A stretch of 33,323 bases of DNA from a virus: positions 1-33,323 of IMG/VR virus record IMGVR_UViG_3300029813_000619. One strand, 5' to 3'. Below are positions 1,358 to 30,480 of the stretch, in pieces. Under the pieces are notes generated by a model that was given only the letters and a program-made list of their open reading frames with translations, was not told the origin of the DNA and did not search any database. The stretch's first letter is position 1. Every line of letters starts with the position of its first letter. The position numbers were made by a program, and so were the translations under genes.

Positions 1358-2266
1358 TCACGACCTTACGACCAATTTTCTGTATTCTCCTTCCAGCTCC
1401 TTGTCGTTCAGCATTGTATAAACATAGGAACTGGTGAGGGCAGAATGTCCGAGTATGTTTGAGATGACGGAATTGTTCGCACCCTTCTTTGCCATCTCAT
1501 GCCCCAGATGGTGTCTGAAGCTGTGGGCATTAACTGTTGGGATTTCCGCTTTTGATGAATAGCGTCTCAGAAAAATAGACACTGCACCGTTGCTCAATCT
1601 CTTTCCTAATTGCCACCTGCAAGCTCCAACGAATAATGCTTCGGGGTCTTGAAATTCTGTTCGCTGGAACAGCTCCTCTCTTTTTTCTATCCATCTGCCG
1701 AGATTCTGGTTTGTGCCTTTTGACCAGAAAAGTTGCCTGAAGGGTTTCATTCCCCTGCTCTTTTCTGTTTTCACTGTTCCTTTCATTACATCTGCCTCTA
1801 TGTCGTCCATGTTAAGTGATACCAATTCACCGACTCTTGCTCCCGTGTCCCACAGCATGTTCACGAGTGCCAAATTGCGGATGTGTCGTGGGTCATTAGA
1901 GTGTTGCGGAATCACGCTCAATAATTTTTCGTATTCTTCTTCTGTGGCTACTCGTGGCGGTTTATACTCTCGTCTCGGAATCGGAATCAGCTGATAGTCC
2001 ACTACTTCGTGTCCCTGTCTCCCATAAAATTGGTAGAGCTTCCTGAGTGCTATGCTTTTCGTAACGAAGCCGTTCCACTTCCAGCCCAGCTCTGCCATCA
2101 GATTGAAATATCCTGTGATGTCTTGCAGTTGCACGCTCTCAATTTCAGGATTTCTCATGTAGAGACAGAAGTTCCTGAGGTCAAGTTCGTATCCCTTTAG
2201 CGTTCCTTTTGAGGAATTTATCTGTCTCCATTCAATGAACTTATTTATTGCTTCTTTAAATTTCAT
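1358..2266 (-). CDS. int: Tyrosine recombinase (phage integrase)
   Basis: A 302-residue site-specific recombinase. An N-terminal SAM-like core-binding domain (about residues 1-100) precedes the catalytic domain. The catalytic residues are visible: Arg144 in TGARVGEL, the HSFR box (His248, Arg251), His274 in ILGHSALTSS and the nucleophile Tyr283 in YVYT; a Lys near 166-169 fits the beta-hairpin lysine. It would join phage and host DNA at the rpmG-derived junction about 0.5 kb beyond its 3' end. The start ATG directly follows a 9-bp hairpin that may limit translation. No SD is obvious apart from GGCAGG inside that hairpin. It is separated from the late genes by a strong terminator, consistent with independent control. 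Confidence 0.95.
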   Translation of the reverse strand: MKFKEAINKFIEWRQINSSKGTLKGYELDLRNFCLYMRNPEIESVQLQDITGYFNLMAELGWKWNGFVTKSIALRKLYQFYGRQGHEVVDYQLIPIPRREYKPPRVATEEEYEKLLSVIPQHSNDPRHIRNLALVNMLWDTGARVGELVSLNMDDIEADVMKGTVKTEKSRGMKPFRQLFWSKGTNQNLGRWIEKREELFQRTEFQDPEALFVGACRWQLGKRLSNGAVSIFLRRYSSKAEIPTVNAHSFRHHLGHEMAKKGANNSVISNILGHSALTSSYVYTMLNDKELEGEYRKLVVRS

Positions 2267-10870: not shown

Positions 10871-11107
10871 TCAATTTTGTTTGGTTCTAAAAACTCGACC
10901 TTTTAAGTGTGGCTGGTAATAATAGCCGTCTTGTCTCTTTTTGAATTTCTCTTTGATGGATTTCAATTTGGAAACTATTCCCTCTCCTTTTTCTGAAGGT
11001 TTCTCGATTACTTTTCTTGGCTCTACTTTGCGAATTTCTTTTGCCAAGCCCTCTTTTTTAATTTTTAGTGATTTGATTTTATACATAAGCGATTTCTTTC
11101 CAGCCAT
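10871..11107 (-). CDS. Small Lys-rich protein of the tail module
   Basis: A 78-residue, strongly basic protein (many Lys; YYYQPHLKGRVFRTKQN at the end). The ATG at 11107 overlaps the fibre gene by 29 bp and has GGGAG 6 nt upstream; the internal ATG at 11086 has GGAAAG upstream and an overlap of 8 bp, so the start is uncertain. No family is recognised. Its last codons contain a copy of the AAGGTCGA motif serving the next gene. Confidence 0.6.
   Translation of the reverse strand: MAGKKSLMYKIKSLKIKKEGLAKEIRKVEPRKVIEKPSEKGEGIVSKLKSIKEKFKKRQDGYYYQPHLKGRVFRTKQN
10894..10902 (-). promoter_or_regulatory. AAGGTCGA motif inside a coding sequence
   Basis: Minus strand AAGGTCGAG within the codons for HLKGRVF of the basic protein, 27 nt before the next ATG at 10866. 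Confidence 0.6.
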
Positions 11108-17131: not shown

Positions 17132-17140
17132 CTCGACCTT
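17132..17140 (-). promoter_or_regulatory. AAGGTCGA motif after a terminator-like hairpin
   Basis: Minus strand TTAAAAGGTCGAG, 30 nt before the ATG at 17101 and directly after the hairpin at 17149-17178. Confidence 0.65.
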
Positions 17141-17178
17141 TTAATAAAAAGCCCGTCGTTCATTTAGAACTTGGGCTT
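17141..17178 (-). terminator. Hairpin straddling a stop codon, with U-tract
   Basis: AAGCCC/GGGCTT (17149-17154 with 17173-17178) encloses GTTC/GAAC (17158-17161 with 17067+100 to 17170, that is 17167-17170). The TAA of the preceding gene lies in the loop, and TTTTTATT follows on the minus strand. It has the form of an intrinsic terminator inside the late gene block. Confidence 0.6.
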
Positions 17179-17625: not shown

Positions 17626-17634
17626 CTCGACCTT
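17626..17634 (-). promoter_or_regulatory. AAGGTCGA motif after the capsid 3' structured region
   Basis: Minus strand TTAAAAGGTCGAG, 27 nt before the ATG at 17598 and 13 nt after the last competing stem. Confidence 0.65.
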
Positions 17635-17638
17635 TTAA

Positions 17639-19981: not shown

Positions 19982-19990
19982 CTCGACCTT
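19982..19990 (-). promoter_or_regulatory. AAGGTCGA motif before the scaffold gene
   Basis: Minus strand TTAAAAAGGTCGAG directly after the stop codon of the 71-residue gene, 34 nt before the scaffold ATG at 19947. Confidence 0.65.
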
Positions 19991-19991
19991 T

Positions 19992-21252: not shown

Positions 21253-21261
21253 CTCGACCTT
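21253..21261 (-). promoter_or_regulatory. AAGGTCGA motif after the portal gene
   Basis: Minus strand TAAAAAGGTCGAGC directly after the portal stop codon, 29 nt before ATG 21223. Confidence 0.65.
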
Positions 21262-21262
21262 T

Positions 21263-23104
21263 TTATTTAAACTTCCGCAGGATTGGAATTTTTGCCATCA
21301 TTCTGCTCATAATTCCTGGCGGAGCTGGCATTGGTGTTGCTCCTGGTAGTGCTGGCGATTTTCCTGCTTCTGTTTTTCTCTCTGGCGGAACTTCCTTTTT
21401 TGGTTTTGGTTCTTCCTCTCCTAACAGCACTTCTTCGTATGCTTCTTTGCCCAGTTCCTCTAAAATCATCTTTTGCAGTTCTCTTTTTCTCTTTTGCCAT
21501 TGCTTTACTTCCTCTGGATTATTCGGGTCTGGCTTATCTTCAGCTACTAATTTGTCGTAGAGCATCAGCACCTGATTTAATCTGGTTTCTTGGTCTGGCG
21601 GAATGATTGGCTCGATTTCTACTAAAGCATCCACTTTCACTTCTTTATCCTCTTTAGTAAATTCTTTGAAGGTTACTTCGTCTCCCACGATTCGGTAGAG
21701 CTTATCTTCATCTATGAACTCCCTGTTTAGCTGAATCAGATTGTTCACTAATTGAGTAAGGGCTTCTGCCACTTGGTCTGCGAGAGTGCTTAATCTCAGA
21801 TTGCCCTGCCCTAACAGCATTGCCACTTTTGATGATGGCTCTTGTTTGCTTTTAGGAACTCCTTGCATGTATTCGCTTAGTGCCAATGTTCTTTCTATCT
21901 CAGTCCTCATCATTGCATCCTCATTGATTCCCATTGGGCTGATGTCTGGCGGTCTTTCCACAACCACATCGTCTATTTTCTTTAGTTCCCATTTTGCTCC
22001 TGGTGCGAAGATAATGTCGTCTTTGGAAATCCCTCTGTCTTTGAGAATTTTCACTACGGGGTCGAGCATCAGGATGACATCGTCCATTCTTTGGTTTCTT
22101 AAATCTGCAATTTCAAGGATGGTTGTTTCGACTGGCTCAATGTGTCCTGTTGCCCAGAATTCCCAGTTGAGCAGGTGGTCTGGCAGGTCTATGAAAATTC
22201 TGCCGTTGTTTATTTTTTGGTAGGGATTGTCATCGTCTCTAATCAGCACTTCCTGATTGGCAATTACTATCAGTTTCTTTTCTTCGTAATCCCAAATCTC
22301 CCAGAGTTCTACCTGCTTTTCCCCTTCTGCTTTTTCTCCGACCTTAATTTCTTCTCCCCCTTCTTCTGATTTTTTCGTCTTGCCTTTTATCTGCGACATT
22401 TTTAATCCATTGATTTCGTATCGCTCTTTTTTCCAGTCCTCTATTTTTTTTGGTTCTGCAAATTCTAAATTCTTATAAAGCTTTGGCAGTTTTGCATCTT
22501 CTCTGGCTTTTTCTTTTCTCTCTATTGATTCCTTTGTTTTTGCTAATCTGCGAATCAGCCAGGGGCAATCCTCTTGAAGGTCTGTGGTCTCTGGTGCTGG
22601 CAGAATGTCCCAGAGGTCTTCAATATTTACAGCTGGGTCATCGTAATCTCCGTCAGTCAGCCAAGTCGTCATTGCTATTCCATTACCGTAGGTCGTTGCC
22701 GCTTTCAGCCATTGCCTCAATTTCTTTTTCAGATTGATAACATCGACGCCGAAGTCGTAGTTGACTAAGTCGTCCCACGAGCCCAGTGCTTTTGATTTCA
22801 CATCCTTTTTTTCTCTGGGCAGAATTCTGGTCTTTCTCTTTGCGGTTGCCAATCTTGAAACCACTGTCTCTACAATTTCAAAAGCGATTGCGGGCATTAG
22901 CCGTGTTTCGTAGGCGTAGTTTTCCTTGTCTTGGTATGCTCGGTAGAGTTTATACATCCGCAACCATTTCGTTTGGAACGGCTTTCGGAATTGCTCTGCT
23001 CTCTTGAATCTCTTTTTCCACTTCTCTATGAGCTTTTCATCCTCTGATGAAGGACTATATTCCGCCTCTGACTTTAATGTTGTTTTTGTTTCTTGTTCTG
23101 GCAT
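21263..23104 (-). CDS. Portal protein (podovirus type)
   Basis: A 613-residue portal that forms the DNA gate at one capsid vertex and docks the terminase. The start is ATG 23104 (MPEQETKTTL); the upstream extension would run through a hairpin. Recognisable portal features are the N-terminal KRAEQFRKPFQTKWLRMYKL, MPAIAFEIVETVVSRL, the central MDDVILMLDPVVKILKDRGI with PGAKWELKKIDD, and the long helix SSKVAMLLGQGNLRLSTLAD that lines the channel. The tail is Pro/Lys-rich and ends KIPILRKFK. The pattern resembles P22-type portals more than long-tail HK97 types. A large hairpin and its own promoter lie immediately upstream. Confidence 0.88.
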   Translation of the reverse strand: MPEQETKTTLKSEAEYSPSSEDEKLIEKWKKRFKRAEQFRKPFQTKWLRMYKLYRAYQDKENYAYETRLMPAIAFEIVETVVSRLATAKRKTRILPREKKDVKSKALGSWDDLVNYDFGVDVINLKKKLRQWLKAATTYGNGIAMTTWLTDGDYDDPAVNIEDLWDILPAPETTDLQEDCPWLIRRLAKTKESIERKEKAREDAKLPKLYKNLEFAEPKKIEDWKKERYEINGLKMSQIKGKTKKSEEGGEEIKVGEKAEGEKQVELWEIWDYEEKKLIVIANQEVLIRDDDNPYQKINNGRIFIDLPDHLLNWEFWATGHIEPVETTILEIADLRNQRMDDVILMLDPVVKILKDRGISKDDIIFAPGAKWELKKIDDVVVERPPDISPMGINEDAMMRTEIERTLALSEYMQGVPKSKQEPSSKVAMLLGQGNLRLSTLADQVAEALTQLVNNLIQLNREFIDEDKLYRIVGDEVTFKEFTKEDKEVKVDALVEIEPIIPPDQETRLNQVLMLYDKLVAEDKPDPNNPEEVKQWQKRKRELQKMILEELGKEAYEEVLLGEEEPKPKKEVPPERKTEAGKSPALPGATPMPAPPGIMSRMMAKIPILRKFK

Positions 23105-23118
23105 GGTTGAAAAAATTT

Positions 23119-23204
23119 CCAAATAAAAAACGGGGTCGCAACTTCCCGTCCTCAAAATTTCACCATTTCAAAAAATGGTTTGAGGACAGAAGTCGCAACC
23201 CCGT
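23119..23204 (-). terminator. Long 26-bp hairpin with U-tract before the portal
   Basis: The arms at 23130-23156 and 23179-23204 pair over 26 bp with one bulge; in the minus-strand RNA three pairs are G-U, so the RNA helix is better than the DNA palindrome. An inner CCATTT/AAATGG stem lies in the loop. TTTTTTATTT follows on the minus strand, 15 nt before the portal ATG. It could terminate restriction-cassette transcripts or act as an attenuator for the portal operon. Confidence 0.75.
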
Positions 23205-23680: not shown

Positions 23681-24844
23681 TTAATCTTCTTCCTGCTCTG
23701 TATCCTCGCCGTCTGCTTTCTTCCCGTTTTGAATCATAAATCCTTCGTAAGAGCCGATGCGGGTGAAATCAATGTCGTATGTCTTGCTGTCGATTTTGTA
23801 GACAACCACCGTATCAAGCCCTATCATCTGAAGCTTGTCGTATGTGAGAAGCTCCCGCTCCTTCAGGTTCATAATGTCACGCAGAAGCCATTTGCCGAGT
23901 GCAGAGTTCGGGTTGCTCATAAGTGCCTTGCTGTTGTCCTGGCATACCTTTGCACTCATTGCCGTCCTGTCTGGCAGGGTGAGCTCGAATGCCTCGTCAC
24001 GGGGAGGGAAGAACTTCGGAAACTTTTCGTGAATCCATGCTGGAATAGGAATGTAAATCTCATTCGGGTCACGGGGACGCCCAGACGCATTCCACTGGTT
24101 AAGCCCGCTCTTTTCTGGCACATGCTTCACTCCGCCCCGCATTGAGTAAAGCGGAAGAAAAATGTGGGGCTGAACTTTAATCGGTGCGAATATCAGCTTG
24201 CCTTCTTCGATGAGTTTGTCTATCTGGCTGAACGGGTCTTCGAGAATCCGCACTGGCACTTCGAGCAGGATGTTCCCCGTCACGAATCTCTTGTAGAGAA
24301 CGCTTTTCGAATTGCTGAATGAGTAATCTGCGGAGGGGTCAGAGAACTGAATTGTGTTGCCAGTAGTGCGGATGTTTTTTATTCCGCCGATTTTTATCAG
24401 CGGAGCTGGCGTTTCAAACACTATAATTTTCCCGACTCTGCGGGCTACGCAGTGATAGACGATGTTGTCGAGACCAAAAATTCTTTTTGTTGTTTCAATG
24501 CGTTTGTTTCTGAGTTCGGCAATCTTTTTTATCTTGTCTTCGGTTGCCAGTGCATGAAATACTGCATGGTCGCTGTTGAACTCTGCCACCTTCTGCATTG
24601 ACCTGCCGTTGCCCTCAAGGAAGGTCTTGATTCCGAATCCCATCTTGTTTTTTGAAGCGTCGGCTGATGCATCAGAACGGGACAGGTTCTCGGCTTCAAA
24701 TGCCTTGCAAAACAAATTTTCTGTCGCTCGGTATGCGAGATATGGCTCTGGTGCTTCCGAAAATAATCTTGAAAGCGAGCCGACTGCCTTAAGCAGTCGC
24801 TCATAATAATTCACTTGTTTTTCTGACTGGCTCTCTATAAACAT
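23681..24844 (-). CDS. Type II restriction endonuclease with B3-like recognition domain
   Basis: A 387-residue protein starting at ATG 24844 (MFIESQSEKQ), 8 bp after the methyltransferase. The N-terminal part contains ADASKNKMGFGIKTFLEGNG and QKVAEFN (about residues 60-90), a pattern I associate with restriction enzymes and where the nuclease centre may lie. The C-terminal part (about 245-365) has RPRDPNEIYIPIPAWIHEKF, then FELTLPDRTAMSAKVCQDNS and NPNSALGKWLLRDIM, which resemble the B3-like DNA-recognition domain of NgoFVII/BfiI-type enzymes. The phospholipase-D HxK motif of those enzymes is not seen, so the catalytic domain appears different. Position between a C5 methyltransferase and vsr supports the call. 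Confidence 0.82.
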   Translation of the reverse strand: MFIESQSEKQVNYYERLLKAVGSLSRLFSEAPEPYLAYRATENLFCKAFEAENLSRSDASADASKNKMGFGIKTFLEGNGRSMQKVAEFNSDHAVFHALATEDKIKKIAELRNKRIETTKRIFGLDNIVYHCVARRVGKIIVFETPAPLIKIGGIKNIRTTGNTIQFSDPSADYSFSNSKSVLYKRFVTGNILLEVPVRILEDPFSQIDKLIEEGKLIFAPIKVQPHIFLPLYSMRGGVKHVPEKSGLNQWNASGRPRDPNEIYIPIPAWIHEKFPKFFPPRDEAFELTLPDRTAMSAKVCQDNSKALMSNPNSALGKWLLRDIMNLKERELLTYDKLQMIGLDTVVVYKIDSKTYDIDFTRIGSYEGFMIQNGKKADGEDTEQEED

Positions 24845-24852
24845 AACTCTTT

Positions 24853-25806
24853 TTAATCTAAAGCTTTTCTGACTTGACGGGCTATTCGCCCGATTACGGA
24901 AACCGTCACCGAATTTCCGAACTGCTTGTATAGTTTTGTGTCGGGAATGTCTTTCGGGAGCTTGAATCTTTCGGGGAAGCCCTGCAACCTTGCACATTCT
25001 CTGGGAGTAATTTTTCTGATTCCCTTTCCGTTTCTTATCAGCGGAACATTGTGTCCGCCCGTTCCCATGTTGGCAGTCAGTGTCGGGCACATTCCCTTTT
25101 TGTTTTCCCGCACATAAACTCTCCGCCACTGATAGACAGTGTTGTGCGATTTCATTGCCTTGTTCAGTTTCGTATAATACGGATGGCTTTTCGGATAGTA
25201 ATATCTGTCTTCTACGCCGTCGTCAAGAAGGTCGGCAACGCTCTTTGTCAGCAGAATCGGCTCTGGGAATTCAAACGCATCATGTGCTTTTTTTGTTTTA
25301 AAGCCGACGATATAAATCCTTTCTCTGCTCTGCGGAACATTTCCGTATTTCATGCTGTTGAGCACTTCTGCTTTTACATGGTAGCCCATATCGCTGAGTG
25401 CTTCCGATATGATGCCGAATGTCCTTCCTTTGTCGTGCGACTTCAGATTTTTCACATTCTCAAGAAAAACTGCCTTTGGTTTTTTATCCCGCAAAATTCT
25501 GACAATTTCAAAAAACAAATTTCCCCGACCAGTGTCAAGGAAACCCCTGCGGTATCCCGCAATGGAGAATGGCTGGCATGGAAATCCGCCGAGCAAAATA
25601 TCAAAATTCGGCAAAGACGAGCTTTTTATCTTTGCCACGTCGGCAATCGTCAGCGGGACTTTTTTAAAGTTGAGTTCGTAAGTCGCTTTGCAGTATGGGT
25701 CGAAATCGTTGGCAAAAACGGTTTCAAATCCCGCCCTCTCGAATCCTATCCTGATTCCGCCCACGCCAGCGAAGAGGTCAATTGTGGTTAGTTTTCGAGT
25801 GGACAT
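24853..25806 (-). CDS. DNA (cytosine-5) methyltransferase
   Basis: A 317-residue C5-methyltransferase using S-adenosylmethionine. Motifs in order: I, DLFAGVGG (10-17); IV, GGFPCQPFS with catalytic Cys76; VI, FLENVKNL (Glu115); VIII, QSRERIYIVG (158-167); a target-recognition segment containing CPTLTANMGTGGHNVPLI; IX, RECARLQGFP; X, KQFGNSV. It is complete and probably active. Its recognition sequence should match that of the adjacent restriction enzyme, but I cannot name it from sequence. A promoter with a perfect TATAAT ends 10 nt before the ATG, so the gene is expressed ahead of the nuclease from an almost leaderless mRNA, a sensible order for establishing protection first. Confidence 0.96.
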   Translation of the reverse strand: MSTRKLTTIDLFAGVGGIRIGFERAGFETVFANDFDPYCKATYELNFKKVPLTIADVAKIKSSSLPNFDILLGGFPCQPFSIAGYRRGFLDTGRGNLFFEIVRILRDKKPKAVFLENVKNLKSHDKGRTFGIISEALSDMGYHVKAEVLNSMKYGNVPQSRERIYIVGFKTKKAHDAFEFPEPILLTKSVADLLDDGVEDRYYYPKSHPYYTKLNKAMKSHNTVYQWRRVYVRENKKGMCPTLTANMGTGGHNVPLIRNGKGIRKITPRECARLQGFPERFKLPKDIPDTKLYKQFGNSVTVSVIGRIARQVRKALD

Positions 25807-25956: not shown

Positions 25957-26913
25957 TTATTTCAAATAATTTTCAATGTTTTCTTTATGCTCCTCGTAAG
26001 TTTCAGCACAGTGAATTTGTCCTTCGCCGTCGTGCAGATAATAAAAATAATCGCTGGGCTGGTCGTGAACTACTGCTTCAATCGCTGCCAGTCCTGGATT
26101 GCAGATTGGTGCTGGAGGTTTGCCTTCGTGCAGGTAGGTATTGTAAGATGATTCTATTTTGTATTCCTCTGGCGTTACTGGTCTCCACCAATTGCCTGGT
26201 TCTCCCACGATGTATTGAATGCTTGCGTCTACCTGGAGTGGCATCGGCTTGAGCAACCTGTTCCAGATTATTCCCGCTATCAATGGCATTTGTTCTTTGT
26301 CGCCTGCTTCTCTTTGAATGATGGAAGCCAGTATGATTGCCGTGTCATTACGGATGTTTTGTTCTTTGAATTCCTTGAAGATTGCCTGGCATTTTTCATT
26401 GAATTTATCTCTCATTCTTTTTGCTACTTGTTTACCTGTGTAATCTAAATTAAGCAGGTAGGTGTCTGGAAACAGGTATCCTTCTTCGGCATGGCTCAGG
26501 AAGTTTTCTTTTGTGTTTTTATCCCAGCCGAGTTTCTTTTGCATCGCTTCTGCGATTTCTTCTTTCCGCAGTCCTTCTGGTATCACTGCCCATTTCTGGT
26601 AAGGATAATTGACCAGCGTGTCTGCCAATTTCCAGGCATCCATTGCTTTTGAAATCTTGTATCCGCCTGGCTTTATTTTGCCCTGCCATCCTTTCTTTTT
26701 TAGCACATAATTGAATGCCCATTCGCTTCTTATGTAGCCCTGCTCTTTTAGTTTAGGAATGAGTTCTTCTTCTGTTGTGGTCAGATTGACTACGATTCTC
26801 TCTGTCTCTGCTCCTTTTTGCGGTGCTGAGAATTGGGATTGAAATGCGAAGACGGCGATTGCTGTCACCAGAATTATCCCGCTTATAATTGTTATTTTTT
26901 GCTTTCCGCTCAT
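25957..26913 (-). CDS. mltG: Endolytic murein transglycosylase MltG
   Basis: A 318-residue YceG/MltG protein, which cuts nascent glycan strands at the outer face of the membrane. It has an N-terminal anchor (ITIISGIILVTAIAVFAF, residues 8-25), a LysM-like region (about 35-125), the hallmark EEGYLFPDTY (143-152), the catalytic Glu202 in ASIIQREAGD, and the C-terminal signature YNTYLHEGKPPAPICNPGLA with AIEAVV. Nothing essential is missing. MltG is normally chromosomal, so its presence between terminase and portal is unusual. It has its own promoter 7 nt upstream and tandem terminators before it, the organisation of a moron. The start is ATG 26913; an in-frame GTG precedes it. Confidence 0.93.
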   Translation of the reverse strand: MSGKQKITIISGIILVTAIAVFAFQSQFSAPQKGAETERIVVNLTTTEEELIPKLKEQGYIRSEWAFNYVLKKKGWQGKIKPGGYKISKAMDAWKLADTLVNYPYQKWAVIPEGLRKEEIAEAMQKKLGWDKNTKENFLSHAEEGYLFPDTYLLNLDYTGKQVAKRMRDKFNEKCQAIFKEFKEQNIRNDTAIILASIIQREAGDKEQMPLIAGIIWNRLLKPMPLQVDASIQYIVGEPGNWWRPVTPEEYKIESSYNTYLHEGKPPAPICNPGLAAIEAVVHDQPSDYFYYLHDGEGQIHCAETYEEHKENIENYLK

Positions 26914-26920
26914 CACTCTT

Positions 26921-26949
26921 ATTATCTTTTTATATCAAAACAAAGTCAA
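26921..26949 (-). promoter_or_regulatory. Promoter of mltG
   Basis: Minus strand: -35 TTGACT (26944-26949), 17-bp spacer, -10 GATAAT (26921-26926), then 7 nt to ATG 26913, predicting a leaderless mRNA. The -35 lies in the 3' arm of a terminator-like hairpin. Confidence 0.75.
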
Positions 26950-26988
26950 GGGCTTCTGCTCTGGGTTGGCAGAGCTTCCGCCCTTGAC
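26937..26988 (-). terminator. Two-tier hairpin terminator upstream of mltG
   Basis: GTCAAGGGC/GCCCTTGAC (26945-26953 with 26980-26988) encloses GCTCTG/CAGAGC (26958-26963 with 26970-26975), all perfect. TTTGTTTT follows on the minus strand. Confidence 0.75.
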
Positions 26989-27022
26989 CATCTGTTCTGC
27001 CACATTTTATTTATTTTGTCAA

Positions 27023-27070
27023 GACCAAAACAAAAACCTCTGGGATTGGCAGAGATTTTTTTATTGGTTT
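27023..27070 (-). terminator. Terminator after the secreted-protein gene
   Basis: CTCTG/CAGAG (27038-27042 with 27050-27054), flanked by A-rich and T-rich tracts on both sides, followed by GGTTTTTGTTTTGG on the minus strand; the form suits termination in both directions. Its core, CTCTGGGATTGGCAGAG, is nearly the same as that of the hairpin at 26945-26988. Confidence 0.7.
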
Positions 27071-27097
27071 TGTTTGCTTTTTGGTCTCTTATCTGCT

Positions 27098-27691
27098 TTA
27101 ATTTTGCCACTTCACTGCATCGGCATAGGCTTTTCCCTCGCAACAATATCCCCAATCGCATTCCCAGTCACCTGTAGTACAACAGTGTATATGTGAGCAC
27201 TCATCTTCCATATAACAATAATAACTTCCCTGACAATCTGCCATATCTGTTAAAACGACTCTATAATCCTGAGTAAATGAATGATACCATAAATAACCCC
27301 ATCCACTTGTCCCATATTGACTTATTTCCTGATTCGCAAGCTCTTCTTGTTCTGAAGCATCCCATAAAAGATAAAACACTCCATTTGTTTCGTAGTAATC
27401 TGTTGAAGGAATATAGGCATATTGATACCAATTACCAGAAGAAGGACCTTCATCATACCAAGAGGCGTAATCATATCCCCAGTCGTCTTTATACCAACAC
27501 ATTGAGTATGTGTAATAAAGGGCATCACAATACTTATCGCCCAAACCTACGGGACCATACCAATGAGCACCAACGAGACTGGTTGGACAATCCTGGGTAT
27601 AGGTCGTCGCCATCACATTACCTATTCCTATTGTCCCTAATAGAATCATTGACAGCAAACCAATACCAAATATTTTTGTAATTTTTTCCAT
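27098..27691 (-). CDS. Secreted Tyr/Trp/Cys-rich protein
   Basis: A 197-residue protein. The start is ATG 27691; a TTG four codons earlier is less likely. A clear signal peptide (KITKIFGIGLLSMILLGTIG, with probable cleavage after NVMA) leads to a mature part packed with Tyr, Trp and 11 Cys, for example DKYCDALYYTYSMCWYKDDW, SGNWYQYAYIPSTDYYE and a C-terminal Cys cluster (CSHIHCC, GYCCEG). Disulfides outside the membrane are likely. I recognise no family. The base composition is more AT-rich than in the head genes. A cell-surface moron that alters host surface or blocks superinfection is a reasonable guess only. Confidence 0.8.
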   Translation of the reverse strand: MEKITKIFGIGLLSMILLGTIGIGNVMATTYTQDCPTSLVGAHWYGPVGLGDKYCDALYYTYSMCWYKDDWGYDYASWYDEGPSSGNWYQYAYIPSTDYYETNGVFYLLWDASEQEELANQEISQYGTSGWGYLWYHSFTQDYRVVLTDMADCQGSYYCYMEDECSHIHCCTTGDWECDWGYCCEGKAYADAVKWQN

Positions 27692-27692
27692 A

Positions 27693-28586
27693 TTATTTAA
27701 CAAAATTTTGGTATTGAATTACCATTCCTCTTGCTCCTTCAACCGATATCAGAATATCATAGTCACGAAGTTCATCAATGTTAACTTTACTTAAATCCCT
27801 ACCTTCTTTCCAGTAAAAAACTGTAATTCCATCATACAATGCTTTTTCTCCCATTGTCTCTTTTATTGAATTGGCTTTTGCATCCCCTTCTATTTTATTC
27901 AATAACTCAATTGCCTTTGCCTTTTTTTCTGATAAAGTCATCCCTCCCGTAAACCTTCCTTCTGTAGTGAAAATGTCAGTATATAATGTTCTTATCGTTC
28001 CCATATCGTTAATCTGCTTTAAGATGATTTTCCCGTCTTCTACTAAATAAAGAAAACCCTTATCATCTGCATATTCACTTGCCTTGATGTATTTTACTTC
28101 TCTTTCTCCAAATACCTCATTGATTTCTCTTATTGCCTCTTTCTGCTGTTCTGGCGTTTGTTGGACTGATTTCATCTCTGCGAGACGTTTTTCGAGGCGT
28201 TGGATAATTTCTTCTTTCTCTTCTACTCTCGGAGCTGAAATGAAAAGATAATACTTATTATTATCGCTTGCTGTATATTCTTCTATTATTCCATTCGGCT
28301 GTCGAATTAAAAACTGACTTTTCATTCCATTTAAATCCCATTGGTATCTCTCTACTTCTTCTGCAGGAATAATCCGCACCCATCTTTCAGGGTCTACGCT
28401 TTGTTCGTTACCCTCTGTGTTTAGTGGTTCACCTTCTATAACTTCAGGAGGGATATCTTTAACGGGCAATATATTTTCAGCCGATATAGTTTCTTGGTCT
28501 AAACCTTTTGTTAAAACCGTCACTCCGATTGTTAAGCCCAATACCATTACAAGAAAACCCACAAGAATTGTTCTTTTCTTTACCAT
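27693..28586 (-). CDS. Membrane-anchored extracytoplasmic protein, unrecognised
   Basis: A 297-residue protein with an N-terminal anchor (TILVGFLVMVLGLTIGVTVL, residues 6-25). The outside part starts with an acidic linker, then a beta-rich section (FLIRQPNGIIEEYTASDNNK, YLFISA), a coiled coil at about 120-155 (EEKEEIIQRLEKRLAEMKSV) and a mixed C-terminal domain (DGITVFYWKEGRDLSKVNID). It ends 1 bp before the secreted Cys-rich gene begins, so the two are co-expressed and may act together at the cell surface. No homologue is known to me. Confidence 0.8.
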   Translation of the reverse strand: MVKKRTILVGFLVMVLGLTIGVTVLTKGLDQETISAENILPVKDIPPEVIEGEPLNTEGNEQSVDPERWVRIIPAEEVERYQWDLNGMKSQFLIRQPNGIIEEYTASDNNKYYLFISAPRVEEKEEIIQRLEKRLAEMKSVQQTPEQQKEAIREINEVFGEREVKYIKASEYADDKGFLYLVEDGKIILKQINDMGTIRTLYTDIFTTEGRFTGGMTLSEKKAKAIELLNKIEGDAKANSIKETMGEKALYDGITVFYWKEGRDLSKVNIDELRDYDILISVEGARGMVIQYQNFVK

Positions 28587-28618: not shown

Positions 28619-28692
28619 CTATCCTTTCGACCTTTGTCCCTTCACGCTGAAGATTTGAACCAACCTTCAAATTCCAGCAGGACAGAGGATAG
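28619..28692. other. Four-tier nested hairpin at the island boundary
   Basis: Perfect nested arms: CTATCCT/AGGATAG (28619-28625 with 28686-28692), TGTCC/GGACA (28635-28639 with 28680-28684), GCTG/CAGC (28646-28649 with 28675-28678) and ATTTGAA/TTCAAAT (28653-28659 with 28666-28672). The AAGGTCGA motif lies in the only large one-sided bulge. U-rich sequence follows on the plus strand, not on the minus strand. Confidence 0.6.
28626..28634 (-). promoter_or_regulatory. AAGGTCGA motif before the membrane-anchored gene
   Basis: Minus strand ACAAAGGTCGAA, 39 nt before ATG 28586, held in the bulge of the nested hairpin. Confidence 0.6.
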
Positions 28693-28750: not shown

Positions 28751-28924
28751 CTAATTCATCTCCTTCCCTGTGCTTGATTCCACCGTCTCTATTCTAAATG
28801 CGTAGCCGTCTTGGATGTAGATGACTATTCTGCCAAATTTTAGCTTTCGGGCATCTCGGTATGCCTTCTCAATGATTCGCATTGCTCGTTCTTCTTGTTT
28901 TATTTTTTTAGTTTGCTGGTTCAT
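28751..28924 (-). CDS. Small basic protein following the terminase
   Basis: A 57-residue protein beginning MNQQTKKIKQEERAMRIIEK, with a helical basic first half and a beta-like second half (KFGRIVIYIQDGYAFRIETV). Its ATG overlaps the TGA of terL (ATGA), strong evidence of a real, coupled gene. The compact strand-turn-strand suggests a small nucleic-acid-binding protein, but I do not recognise it. Confidence 0.75.
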   Translation of the reverse strand: MNQQTKKIKQEERAMRIIEKAYRDARKLKFGRIVIYIQDGYAFRIETVESSTGKEMN

Positions 28925-30480
28925 TTATTTTGTTCGTATTTCAACCGCTTTTTTAGGGCGATGTGCCAGTAAATGAGGGCAGTCCAGAAGTGGTCTGCTC
29001 CTAAGTTTGCCCACTCTCTTTTTTCCTGCCCGTGCCTGTCTGTCACGGTTCTGGCGTAGACGGTCTGGGCGTGCCTGATTAGCAGTTGGAATGTTGGGCT
29101 TTCTTTTGGCATTGCGAATGTGATGTCTCCTCTCATTAGAGATGAGATGGTGTCATCGTAGATTCTGTTTCTGGATGTCAGCACTTTTATTTCGTCCTCG
29201 AATTCCTCTGGTTTCTTTTTCTTTTCGTCTCCGAATCTTATCACTTCCAGCATCTTTGGGTCTTCCTTGAAAAAATTAAGGTAGACACGGTATGGGAATT
29301 CCTTTGCCAGTGCCTGAGCGTCTTCGGTGTATGGCAGGGCGTCTACTACTCCTACTTTTACATTGTAAAATTCTATCAGTTCTTCCATTTGCTGCCATCG
29401 GGTTTTGTTCGGCTTGTCCTTCAGCACTCCCATCCAGAAAATTGCTTTTTCGTTTCCGATGATGATGTGGTTCTCGTTGCCTGTATCCGCTCCCATTATA
29501 TTCCACCCGCTTCGGTCTGGCTCTTTGTTGGTCTGGTTTCTGTAGAATAAGCTGGCTTCTACTTTCTGCTCTGCGGTCAGGTAGGGCAATCCCAAGACGA
29601 AGTTGTAGAAGTATTTCAGGTCTTTTCCTTTTATTCCTTCTTCTGCTTCTCTGTATTCTTGAATGATGTGCTTTGCGTCCCAGCACATCATCTGGTTTAT
29701 CCAGTATCCGCTTATCTCGCTGTCTGGGAATCTTGCTTCCCACTCTCCCAATTTTCTTATTTGCTCTGGCGTTATTTCTTTTCGGCATCTGCTGCAGACA
29801 TAGATTTCTCTCTCGTAATCTATGTTTGCGTCCCATTCCATGTGCTGTCTGTATCCGCAGTGCGGGCAGTCAAACCGCCAGTGCTTCTGGTCTGACTGCT
29901 GGAACAGTTTGTCAATCCCGAAGTCAGGAATGGTCGGTGTTGAAATGTAAATCTCCTCGCCTATTTTTGAAGCAGACATTCTGGAAGCGTAATCTCCTAT
30001 GACGCTCATCTTTGATTTGTCAACCTCGTCGTAGGTGTTCCTGTCGCTTGAAATGATGATTGCTGCTTTTTCAGTGAATGTCCCTTTGTAGTAGACGAAT
30101 CCTTTGCCGATTCCTTTTATTTCCGCACTATCTTTGTCTAATTTAATTCTGTTTACTCTTAAAATTTTATCTACTTTAGTCGGCACGAACTCCCAGACAT
30201 CCCTGTCGCTGGGCAGGGTGTGAATTTGGTTAATTCCCAACCTGTCTACCCCGTGTATTTCTTTCAGGATTGCGAAGGTTGATGCTCCTACCTGCGATGA
30301 CTTTCTGATTACTATGACTTTGCTCTGGTCTGTGTAGATGTCCAGCAGAAAAATGTGCTGGTCAAATTCAATCCTTTTTCCTTTTTCGTTTTTTATTTTG
30401 TTTCTTAATATCCAAAACAGGACGCTCTCCTTCTCGCTCTTGCCCAATTTGGCTTCTGATGAATTGTTTGAGTTTTTCAT
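28921..30480 (-). CDS. terL: Terminase large subunit (GpA-like)
   Basis: A 519-residue packaging motor ATPase and nuclease. The ATPase has the lambda-gpA style deviant Walker A RKSSQVGAS, with Lys60 ahead of the loop, Walker B NTYDEVDKS (Asp151, Glu152) and the coupling motif ISTPT (179-183). A zinc ribbon (CPHC at 205-208, CSRC at 229-232), typical of GpA-type subunits, separates the domains. The nuclease part shows GADTGNENH, VVDALP and the C-terminal ADHFWTAL acidic positions. The listed ATG overlaps the small-subunit gene by 113 bp; a start at the TTG at 30447 would shorten that, so the first residues are uncertain. Confidence 0.94.
   Translation of the reverse strand: MKNSNNSSEAKLGKSEKESVLFWILRNKIKNEKGKRIEFDQHIFLLDIYTDQSKVIVIRKSSQVGASTFAILKEIHGVDRLGINQIHTLPSDRDVWEFVPTKVDKILRVNRIKLDKDSAEIKGIGKGFVYYKGTFTEKAAIIISSDRNTYDEVDKSKMSVIGDYASRMSASKIGEEIYISTPTIPDFGIDKLFQQSDQKHWRFDCPHCGYRQHMEWDANIDYEREIYVCSRCRKEITPEQIRKLGEWEARFPDSEISGYWINQMMCWDAKHIIQEYREAEEGIKGKDLKYFYNFVLGLPYLTAEQKVEASLFYRNQTNKEPDRSGWNIMGADTGNENHIIIGNEKAIFWMGVLKDKPNKTRWQQMEELIEFYNVKVGVVDALPYTEDAQALAKEFPYRVYLNFFKEDPKMLEVIRFGDEKKKKPEEFEDEIKVLTSRNRIYDDTISSLMRGDITFAMPKESPTFQLLIRHAQTVYARTVTDRHGQEKREWANLGADHFWTALIYWHIALKKRLKYEQNK

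Follow-up and report, generated by a model that had tools for sequence, protein, structure and literature searches.

The window analyzed here is the whole of IMG/VR virus record IMGVR_UViG_3300029813_000619, 33,323 bases long, in which nearly all genes lie on the minus strand. Between the genes for the terminase large subunit (terL) and the portal protein is an island that, read in the direction of transcription from terL to portal, consists of the gene at 27693-28586, the gene at 27098-27703, mltG, and a type II restriction-modification pair. The coding features of this region are as follows.

28921-30480, minus strand: terL, one border of the island (PHROG 675, E 1.4e-88)
27693-28586, minus strand: membrane-anchored, putatively PepSY-type protein (family A), modeled like the YpeB C-terminal domain
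27098-27703, minus strand: small secreted or anchored protein (family B), with homologues in related loci L004, L024, and L026
25957-26913, minus strand: mltG, endolytic transglycosylase of the MltG/YceG family, 318 amino acids from the ATG
26842-26904, minus strand: predicted N-terminal membrane anchor of MltG, a hydrophobic segment from residue 5 on, scoring 1.67 over 19 residues
26308-26310, minus strand: codon of the catalytic Glu203 (GTG numbering), equivalent to Glu218 of Escherichia coli MltG
24853-25806, minus strand: C5-cytosine methyltransferase (Pfam, E 1.9e-92)
23681-25129, minus strand: type II restriction endonuclease of the NgoFVII type (PADLOC PDLC03479, E 1.7e-105)
21263-23155, minus strand: portal protein, the island's second border (SU10-type portal and PHROG 332/156 matches)
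1358-2266, minus strand: tyrosine integrase (Pfam, E 3.6e-24), indicating a temperate lifestyle

The mltG ORF spans 25957-26916 on the minus strand if a GTG at 26916 is counted, and the ATG at 26913 is the likelier start. Its product matched Pfam YceG (PF02618) with an E value of 1.8e-72 over 271 residues (244.6 bits; cut-off, 32.4) and TIGR00247, "endolytic transglycosylase MltG," with 164.4 bits (cut-off, 103.4); its relatives in the PDB were 4iiw (Listeria Lmo1499), 2r1f, and 8yq7. Alignment with E. coli mltG from MG1655 placed Glu218 on Glu203, and this position was invariant in all 59 aligned MltGs, phage and chromosomal. Two residues before it, Q replaces E in 18 of 18 phage MltGs, and the same change occurs in some chromosomal copies. 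The first-pass annotation of this DNA had described a complete MltG-type transglycosylase with an anchor and a catalytic Glu, and the PF02618 and TIGR00247 matches, the hydrophobic N-terminus, and Glu203 all bear this out. Phage MltG is apparently active and, as a member of its family, would cleave within nascent glycan strands, leaving 1,6-anhydro ends.

Besides the genes listed above, the phage encodes a major head protein, an SU10-type adaptor, terminase subunits, a ParB-methyltransferase, a large polyvalent protein with an LPD38 domain, a tail-fiber-like gene product, and, among the structural genes, an amidase-domain protein. Several related contigs are 33.8 to 34.6 kb long, and the record is therefore probably close to a full genome. 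Searches with the terminase retrieved related viral contigs and 12 contigs of metagenome-assembled genomes (MAGs), nine of which are titled as Patescibacteria lineages, including Moran-, Gottesman-, Shapiro-, Nomura-, Davies-, and Doudnabacteria; three related terminases are on chromosomal contigs, between 385 kb and 1.1 Mb long. Because the terminases of its relatives lie in Patescibacteria genomes, we infer a Patescibacteria host for the window, which is probably the nearly full-length genome of a temperate phage of a Patescibacterium. An MltG match was found in 365 of 380 Patescibacteria genomes. We also considered a host without its own mltG, for which the phage gene would be the only copy, a case that the first-pass annotation had named as refuting its view, and discarded it; the relatives give the opposite picture, with MltG present in 11 of the 12 genomes of related prophages, most of them having two copies, and prophage-bearing relatives mostly keeping a separate housekeeping mltG.

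Upstream of mltG we found a predicted promoter and two hairpins.

26921-26926, minus strand: -10 element GATAAT, 7 nt before the mltG ATG, conserved in L004
26944-26949, minus strand: -35 element TTGACT, 17 nt from the -10 element
26945-26988, minus strand: two-tier terminator-like hairpin, followed by TTTGTTTT
27032-27060, minus strand: another terminator-like hairpin, of 11 pairs, upstream of the two-tier one

The predicted sigma-70 promoter (TTGACT-17-GATAAT, 7 nt, ATG) scores 10 of 12 to consensus. When the 60 nt upstream of the window gene were shuffled 4000 times, 6 shuffles contained an equally good promoter at leaderless distance, and the same test on the upstream region of L004 gave one as good in 9 of 4000. 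The L004 mltG has identical hexamers, spacer, and ATG distance, so that the earlier claim of an own leaderless promoter holds as a sequence prediction that recurs in a relative. The upstream regions of mltG in L002 and L003 contain no comparable promoter, and the L002 gene begins 15 nt after another small ORF; L017, L018, L030, and L037 have a different sigma-70-like mltG promoter, farther from the start. Leaderlessness as such was dismissed as an unusual feature. Among chromosomal loci of Patescibacteria, the bin 5 to 9 nt from the ATG is enriched in -10-like hexamers, with 21 compared with 3 to 10 per bin at distances above 20 nt; leaderless starts thus seem to be nothing out of the ordinary in the hosts.

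Two perfect stems make up the hairpin at 26945-26988, an outer one of 9 bp and an inner one of 6 bp, with a 4 × 4 internal loop between them; the z score for folding of the region 26925-27100, -6.2, lies well outside chance expectation. TTGAC of the -35 element forms the last part of the 3' arm of this hairpin. The nesting of the -35 element in a perfect two-tier terminator that the first-pass annotation had pointed out was thus seen in the window alone; in L004, the hairpin lies upstream, separate from the promoter. Since the same promoter stands apart from the hairpin there, we regard the nesting as incidental; the idea of a conserved switch was rejected on the L004 arrangement and because the other relatives lack the promoter or the nesting.

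A short intergenic element, AAAGGTCGA, precedes many structural genes; the window contains seven exact copies, where 0.35 would be expected.

28627-28635, 21254-21262, 19983-19991, 17627-17635, 17133-17141, 10895-10903, and 992-1000, all minus strand: copies of AAAGGTCGA

The element is followed by an AATTAA-like sequence and lies mostly 30 to 50 nt ahead of structural-gene ATGs; it was also found in relatives L003, L004, L007, and L026. It may serve this phage lineage as a late promoter or leader. In the window, AAAGGTCGA precedes the gene at 27693-28586 and is not found before mltG or the methyltransferase gene, both of which have start-proximal sigma-70-type promoters (TTGCCC-17-TATAAT, 10 nt from the ATG, for the methyltransferase). 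Because a sigma-70-type promoter rather than AAAGGTCGA stands before it, mltG does not appear to be coupled to the late genes. By the same pattern, the two island genes upstream of mltG (27693-28586 and 27098-27703) may be late rather than lysogenic, since the first of them has AAAGGTCGA ahead of it. The earlier placement of mltG in a structural operon is therefore right as to position, inside the structural gene cluster, but hairpins resembling terminators, together with a promoter of its own, set the gene off from those upstream.

We then examined the neighbors of mltG. The AlphaFold2 model of family A had a mean pLDDT of 71 and was fair beyond residue 63. Alignment of this model with VIA-align gave the YpeB C-terminal domain (5boi) as the best match, with a Z score of 11.7 and 2.8 Å over 124 residues (next best, 6.9); Foldseek and Pfam searches with the same protein gave no significant match. 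For family B, the AlphaFold model (27098-27703) had a pLDDT of 47, too poor for a fold search. The protein is predicted to be secreted, and its relative in L006 weakly matches Golvesin_C (E 2.3e-4, below the cut-off). PDB profile searches with families A and B yielded nothing useful, and a search of a viral fold library returned no significant match.

On the other side of mltG, the restriction-modification pair (23681-25806, minus strand) adjoins it with its own sigma-70-like promoter; the listed endonuclease ORF overlaps the methyltransferase gene, and its true start is therefore probably further in. Other cargo occupies the same slot in relatives, namely an NYN-domain protein (L004:8731-9240), a Gp49/HTH toxin-antitoxin-like pair (L024:16151-16791), and an N6-methyltransferase with an HsdR-type N-terminus (L002:4305-6716). 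The islands of larger relatives contain an ECF-type sigma factor together with a membrane protein that matches the PepSY-like family A profile; the sigma factor is followed by this protein at L016:11878-13307 and also in L017, L018, L030, L032, and L037. Short proteins that resemble only the N-terminal, non-catalytic part of YceG are encoded at L006:9478-10104, L016:15048-15590, and L017:16115-16657, and proteins of this type occur in islands with or without a full mltG.

Across 31 distinct terminase loci, mltG adjoins terL in 18, the island has a short YceG-N-type protein and no full mltG in six, and no island was detected in seven; for several loci only the terL side is established because a portal gene was not seen within 10 kb past terL. 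In L007, L022, L023, and L036, terL and the portal gene are directly adjacent. Families A and B are the recurring partners in the island. An IMG/VR search with the MltG alignment, independent of the terminase search, found 12 contigs, all 12 of which were already in the terminase set. The island may not have been acquired only once: at least four changes are needed to explain its presence on the TerL tree, in which long branches play a part.

Phylogenetic comparison with host chromosomal MltG, the check proposed in the first-pass annotation, put the phage copies outside the housekeeping clade: together with some second chromosomal copies, they are split from it by a branch of 0.91 (support 100/100). 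Within the same genome, phage-type and housekeeping MltG are 28 to 38% identical; in G008, one pair of phage-type copies is 71% identical. The dN/dS ratio between pairs of phage mltG was 0.03 to 0.14, the lower figures being rough because several dS values are near saturation, and sequence comparison places phage mltG under strong purifying selection. The window MltG groups with that of L004, whereas the window terminase groups with that of L003, and the swapped MltG and TerL groupings were rejected (p-AU 0.006 and 3.5e-5). Because the two trees conflict, the promoter and mltG were probably exchanged between phages as a unit. The closest second chromosomal copies are flanked by ordinary chromosomal genes, with neither terL nor portal nearby. 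Such phage-type second MltGs were located at L101:5991-6959, L103:9050-10012, L105:1950-2924, L106:12983-13948, L107:9137-10096, and L115:15165-16142; they are candidates for donors or for domesticated copies.

On balance, we regard mltG as probably an accessory "moron" (lysogenic-conversion) gene of a temperate Patescibacteria phage, acting on the envelope. Set apart from the upstream genes by terminator-like hairpins, mltG would be read leaderless from its own sigma-70-type promoter in the prophage. The anchored phage MltG would cleave glycan strands at the membrane as they are made, beside the host's own MltG, and with its putatively PepSY-type and predicted secreted neighbors would alter the wall and surface of the lysogen; the altered surface could then affect epibiont-host contact, division, or the adsorption of other phages. 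The suggestion in the first-pass annotation that a prophage MltG might remodel the host wall is in part sustained, with a phage-borne and apparently active MltG, its own promoter, and a temperate phage in its favor; we infer the activity of MltG, its expression in the lysogen, and its effect on the wall, and the benefit of the gene is our guess. The lack of a comparable mltG promoter in L002 and L003, the six relatives' islands without a full mltG, the AAAGGTCGA element before the gene at 27693-28586, and the assignment of the window's host through relatives only are points against the moron reading.

The position between terL and the portal gene would suit a role in the lytic cycle, in which MltG trims the wall during virion assembly or aids release and its promoter merely boosts expression within the late region. 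The AAAGGTCGA element that the upstream gene at 27693-28586 shares with structural genes points the same way, as does the L002 mltG, which follows its small ORF so closely with no separate promoter found. However, both in the window and in L004, mltG follows terminator-like hairpins and a sigma-70-type promoter of its own, the structural genes already include an amidase-domain protein, and the island neighbors resemble surface, restriction, and toxin-antitoxin genes rather than lysis genes; we consider a lytic role possible, though rather unlikely. That MltG is a signal-anchor-release endolysin, whose weakly hydrophobic anchor exits the membrane during lysis and so releases the muralytic domain, is improbable. 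MltG does combine a single, modest N-terminal hydrophobic segment with a muralytic domain, but its full-length architecture is like that of housekeeping MltG, the phage encodes a separate amidase, and MltG is absent next to terL in the four loci with adjacent terL and portal genes, with others having only the YceG-N-type protein.

Given that almost all Patescibacteria have an MltG (365 of 380 genomes matched) and that phage-type second chromosomal copies exist, a host mltG might also have been picked up recently by chance, without a phage function. This explanation is contradicted by selection and synteny, with dN/dS far below 1, low identity to the housekeeping copies in relatives' hosts (30 to 38%), and retention beside terL across the lineage, and we give it very little credence. 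Finally, the window is a metagenomic contig, onto which a chromosomal mltG could have been joined in assembly; the same arrangement in many independent contigs, including MAG contigs of up to 1.1 Mb, refutes this, and the chance of such an artifact is negligible.

An elaboration of the moron reading, which we offer only tentatively and regard as doubtful, is that the YpeB-like PepSY protein restrains or stabilizes phage MltG and that the larger relatives add a dedicated phage ECF-type sigma factor with the membrane protein that bears the same PepSY-type domain as its likely anti-sigma factor. The prophage would then sense the envelope and tune the peptidoglycan and surface of the episymbiont, and in this way influence how the episymbiont attaches to its own host or how susceptible it is to other phages. 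The pairing of family A with MltG as regulator and enzyme is a guess from the modeled fold, and it is weakened because some phages have family A without a full MltG.

Patescibacteria are a large group of mostly uncultured, host-dependent, ultra-small bacteria, for which the surface decides attachment and living. Phage MltG is recurrent in one lineage of their temperate phages, and this suggests that resident phages may remodel the surface of episymbiotic Patescibacteria. If mltG is expressed in lysogens, prophages would directly set the glycan length and surface properties of epibionts. In groundwater, Patescibacteriota phages were found to be mostly temperate, with genes for which effects on the surface and adhesion of the host were proposed (PMC12911398, 2025); the main text of that study does not mention MltG, transglycosylase, or cell wall. 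The literature searched gave no description of a phage-borne MltG, and PHROGs gave no match to phage MltG. MltG in cultured phages was considered and set aside: the 16 tblastn matches were all below 60% identity and 14 were in unannotated records, and two "Acinetobacter phage" matches are probably bacterial fragments because they are annotated with yceG and a putative thymidylate kinase.

In Bacillus spores, the cortex-lytic enzyme SleB needs YpeB in order to be stably incorporated (PMC6660665). As in the YpeB-SleB system, a membrane-anchored protein modeled as PepSY-type is encoded here near a peptidoglycan-cleaving enzyme; unlike that system, the enzyme is MltG, not SleB, and PepSY-type homologues also occur without a full MltG. 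Phage morons, or lysogenic-conversion genes, such as those of lambdoid phages, are accessory genes with their own promoter and terminator. Like them, phage mltG lies between core genes, has its own predicted promoter and terminator-like hairpins, is patchily distributed, and has probably been exchanged between phages. It differs from them in that its cargo is a core enzyme of cell-wall biogenesis instead of a toxin, antigen-modifying, or exclusion gene, and in that it is recurrent across one terminase lineage. With E. coli MltG (YceG) and Listeria Lmo1499 (2r1f and 4iiw), phage MltG shares the domain architecture, the anchor, and the catalytic Glu with its surrounding motif, whereas here the enzyme is phage-encoded in a terL-portal island; compared with the housekeeping MltG of Patescibacteria, it forms a separate subfamily. 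MltG is a known enzyme family; as the cargo of a moron-type cassette, it is unusual.
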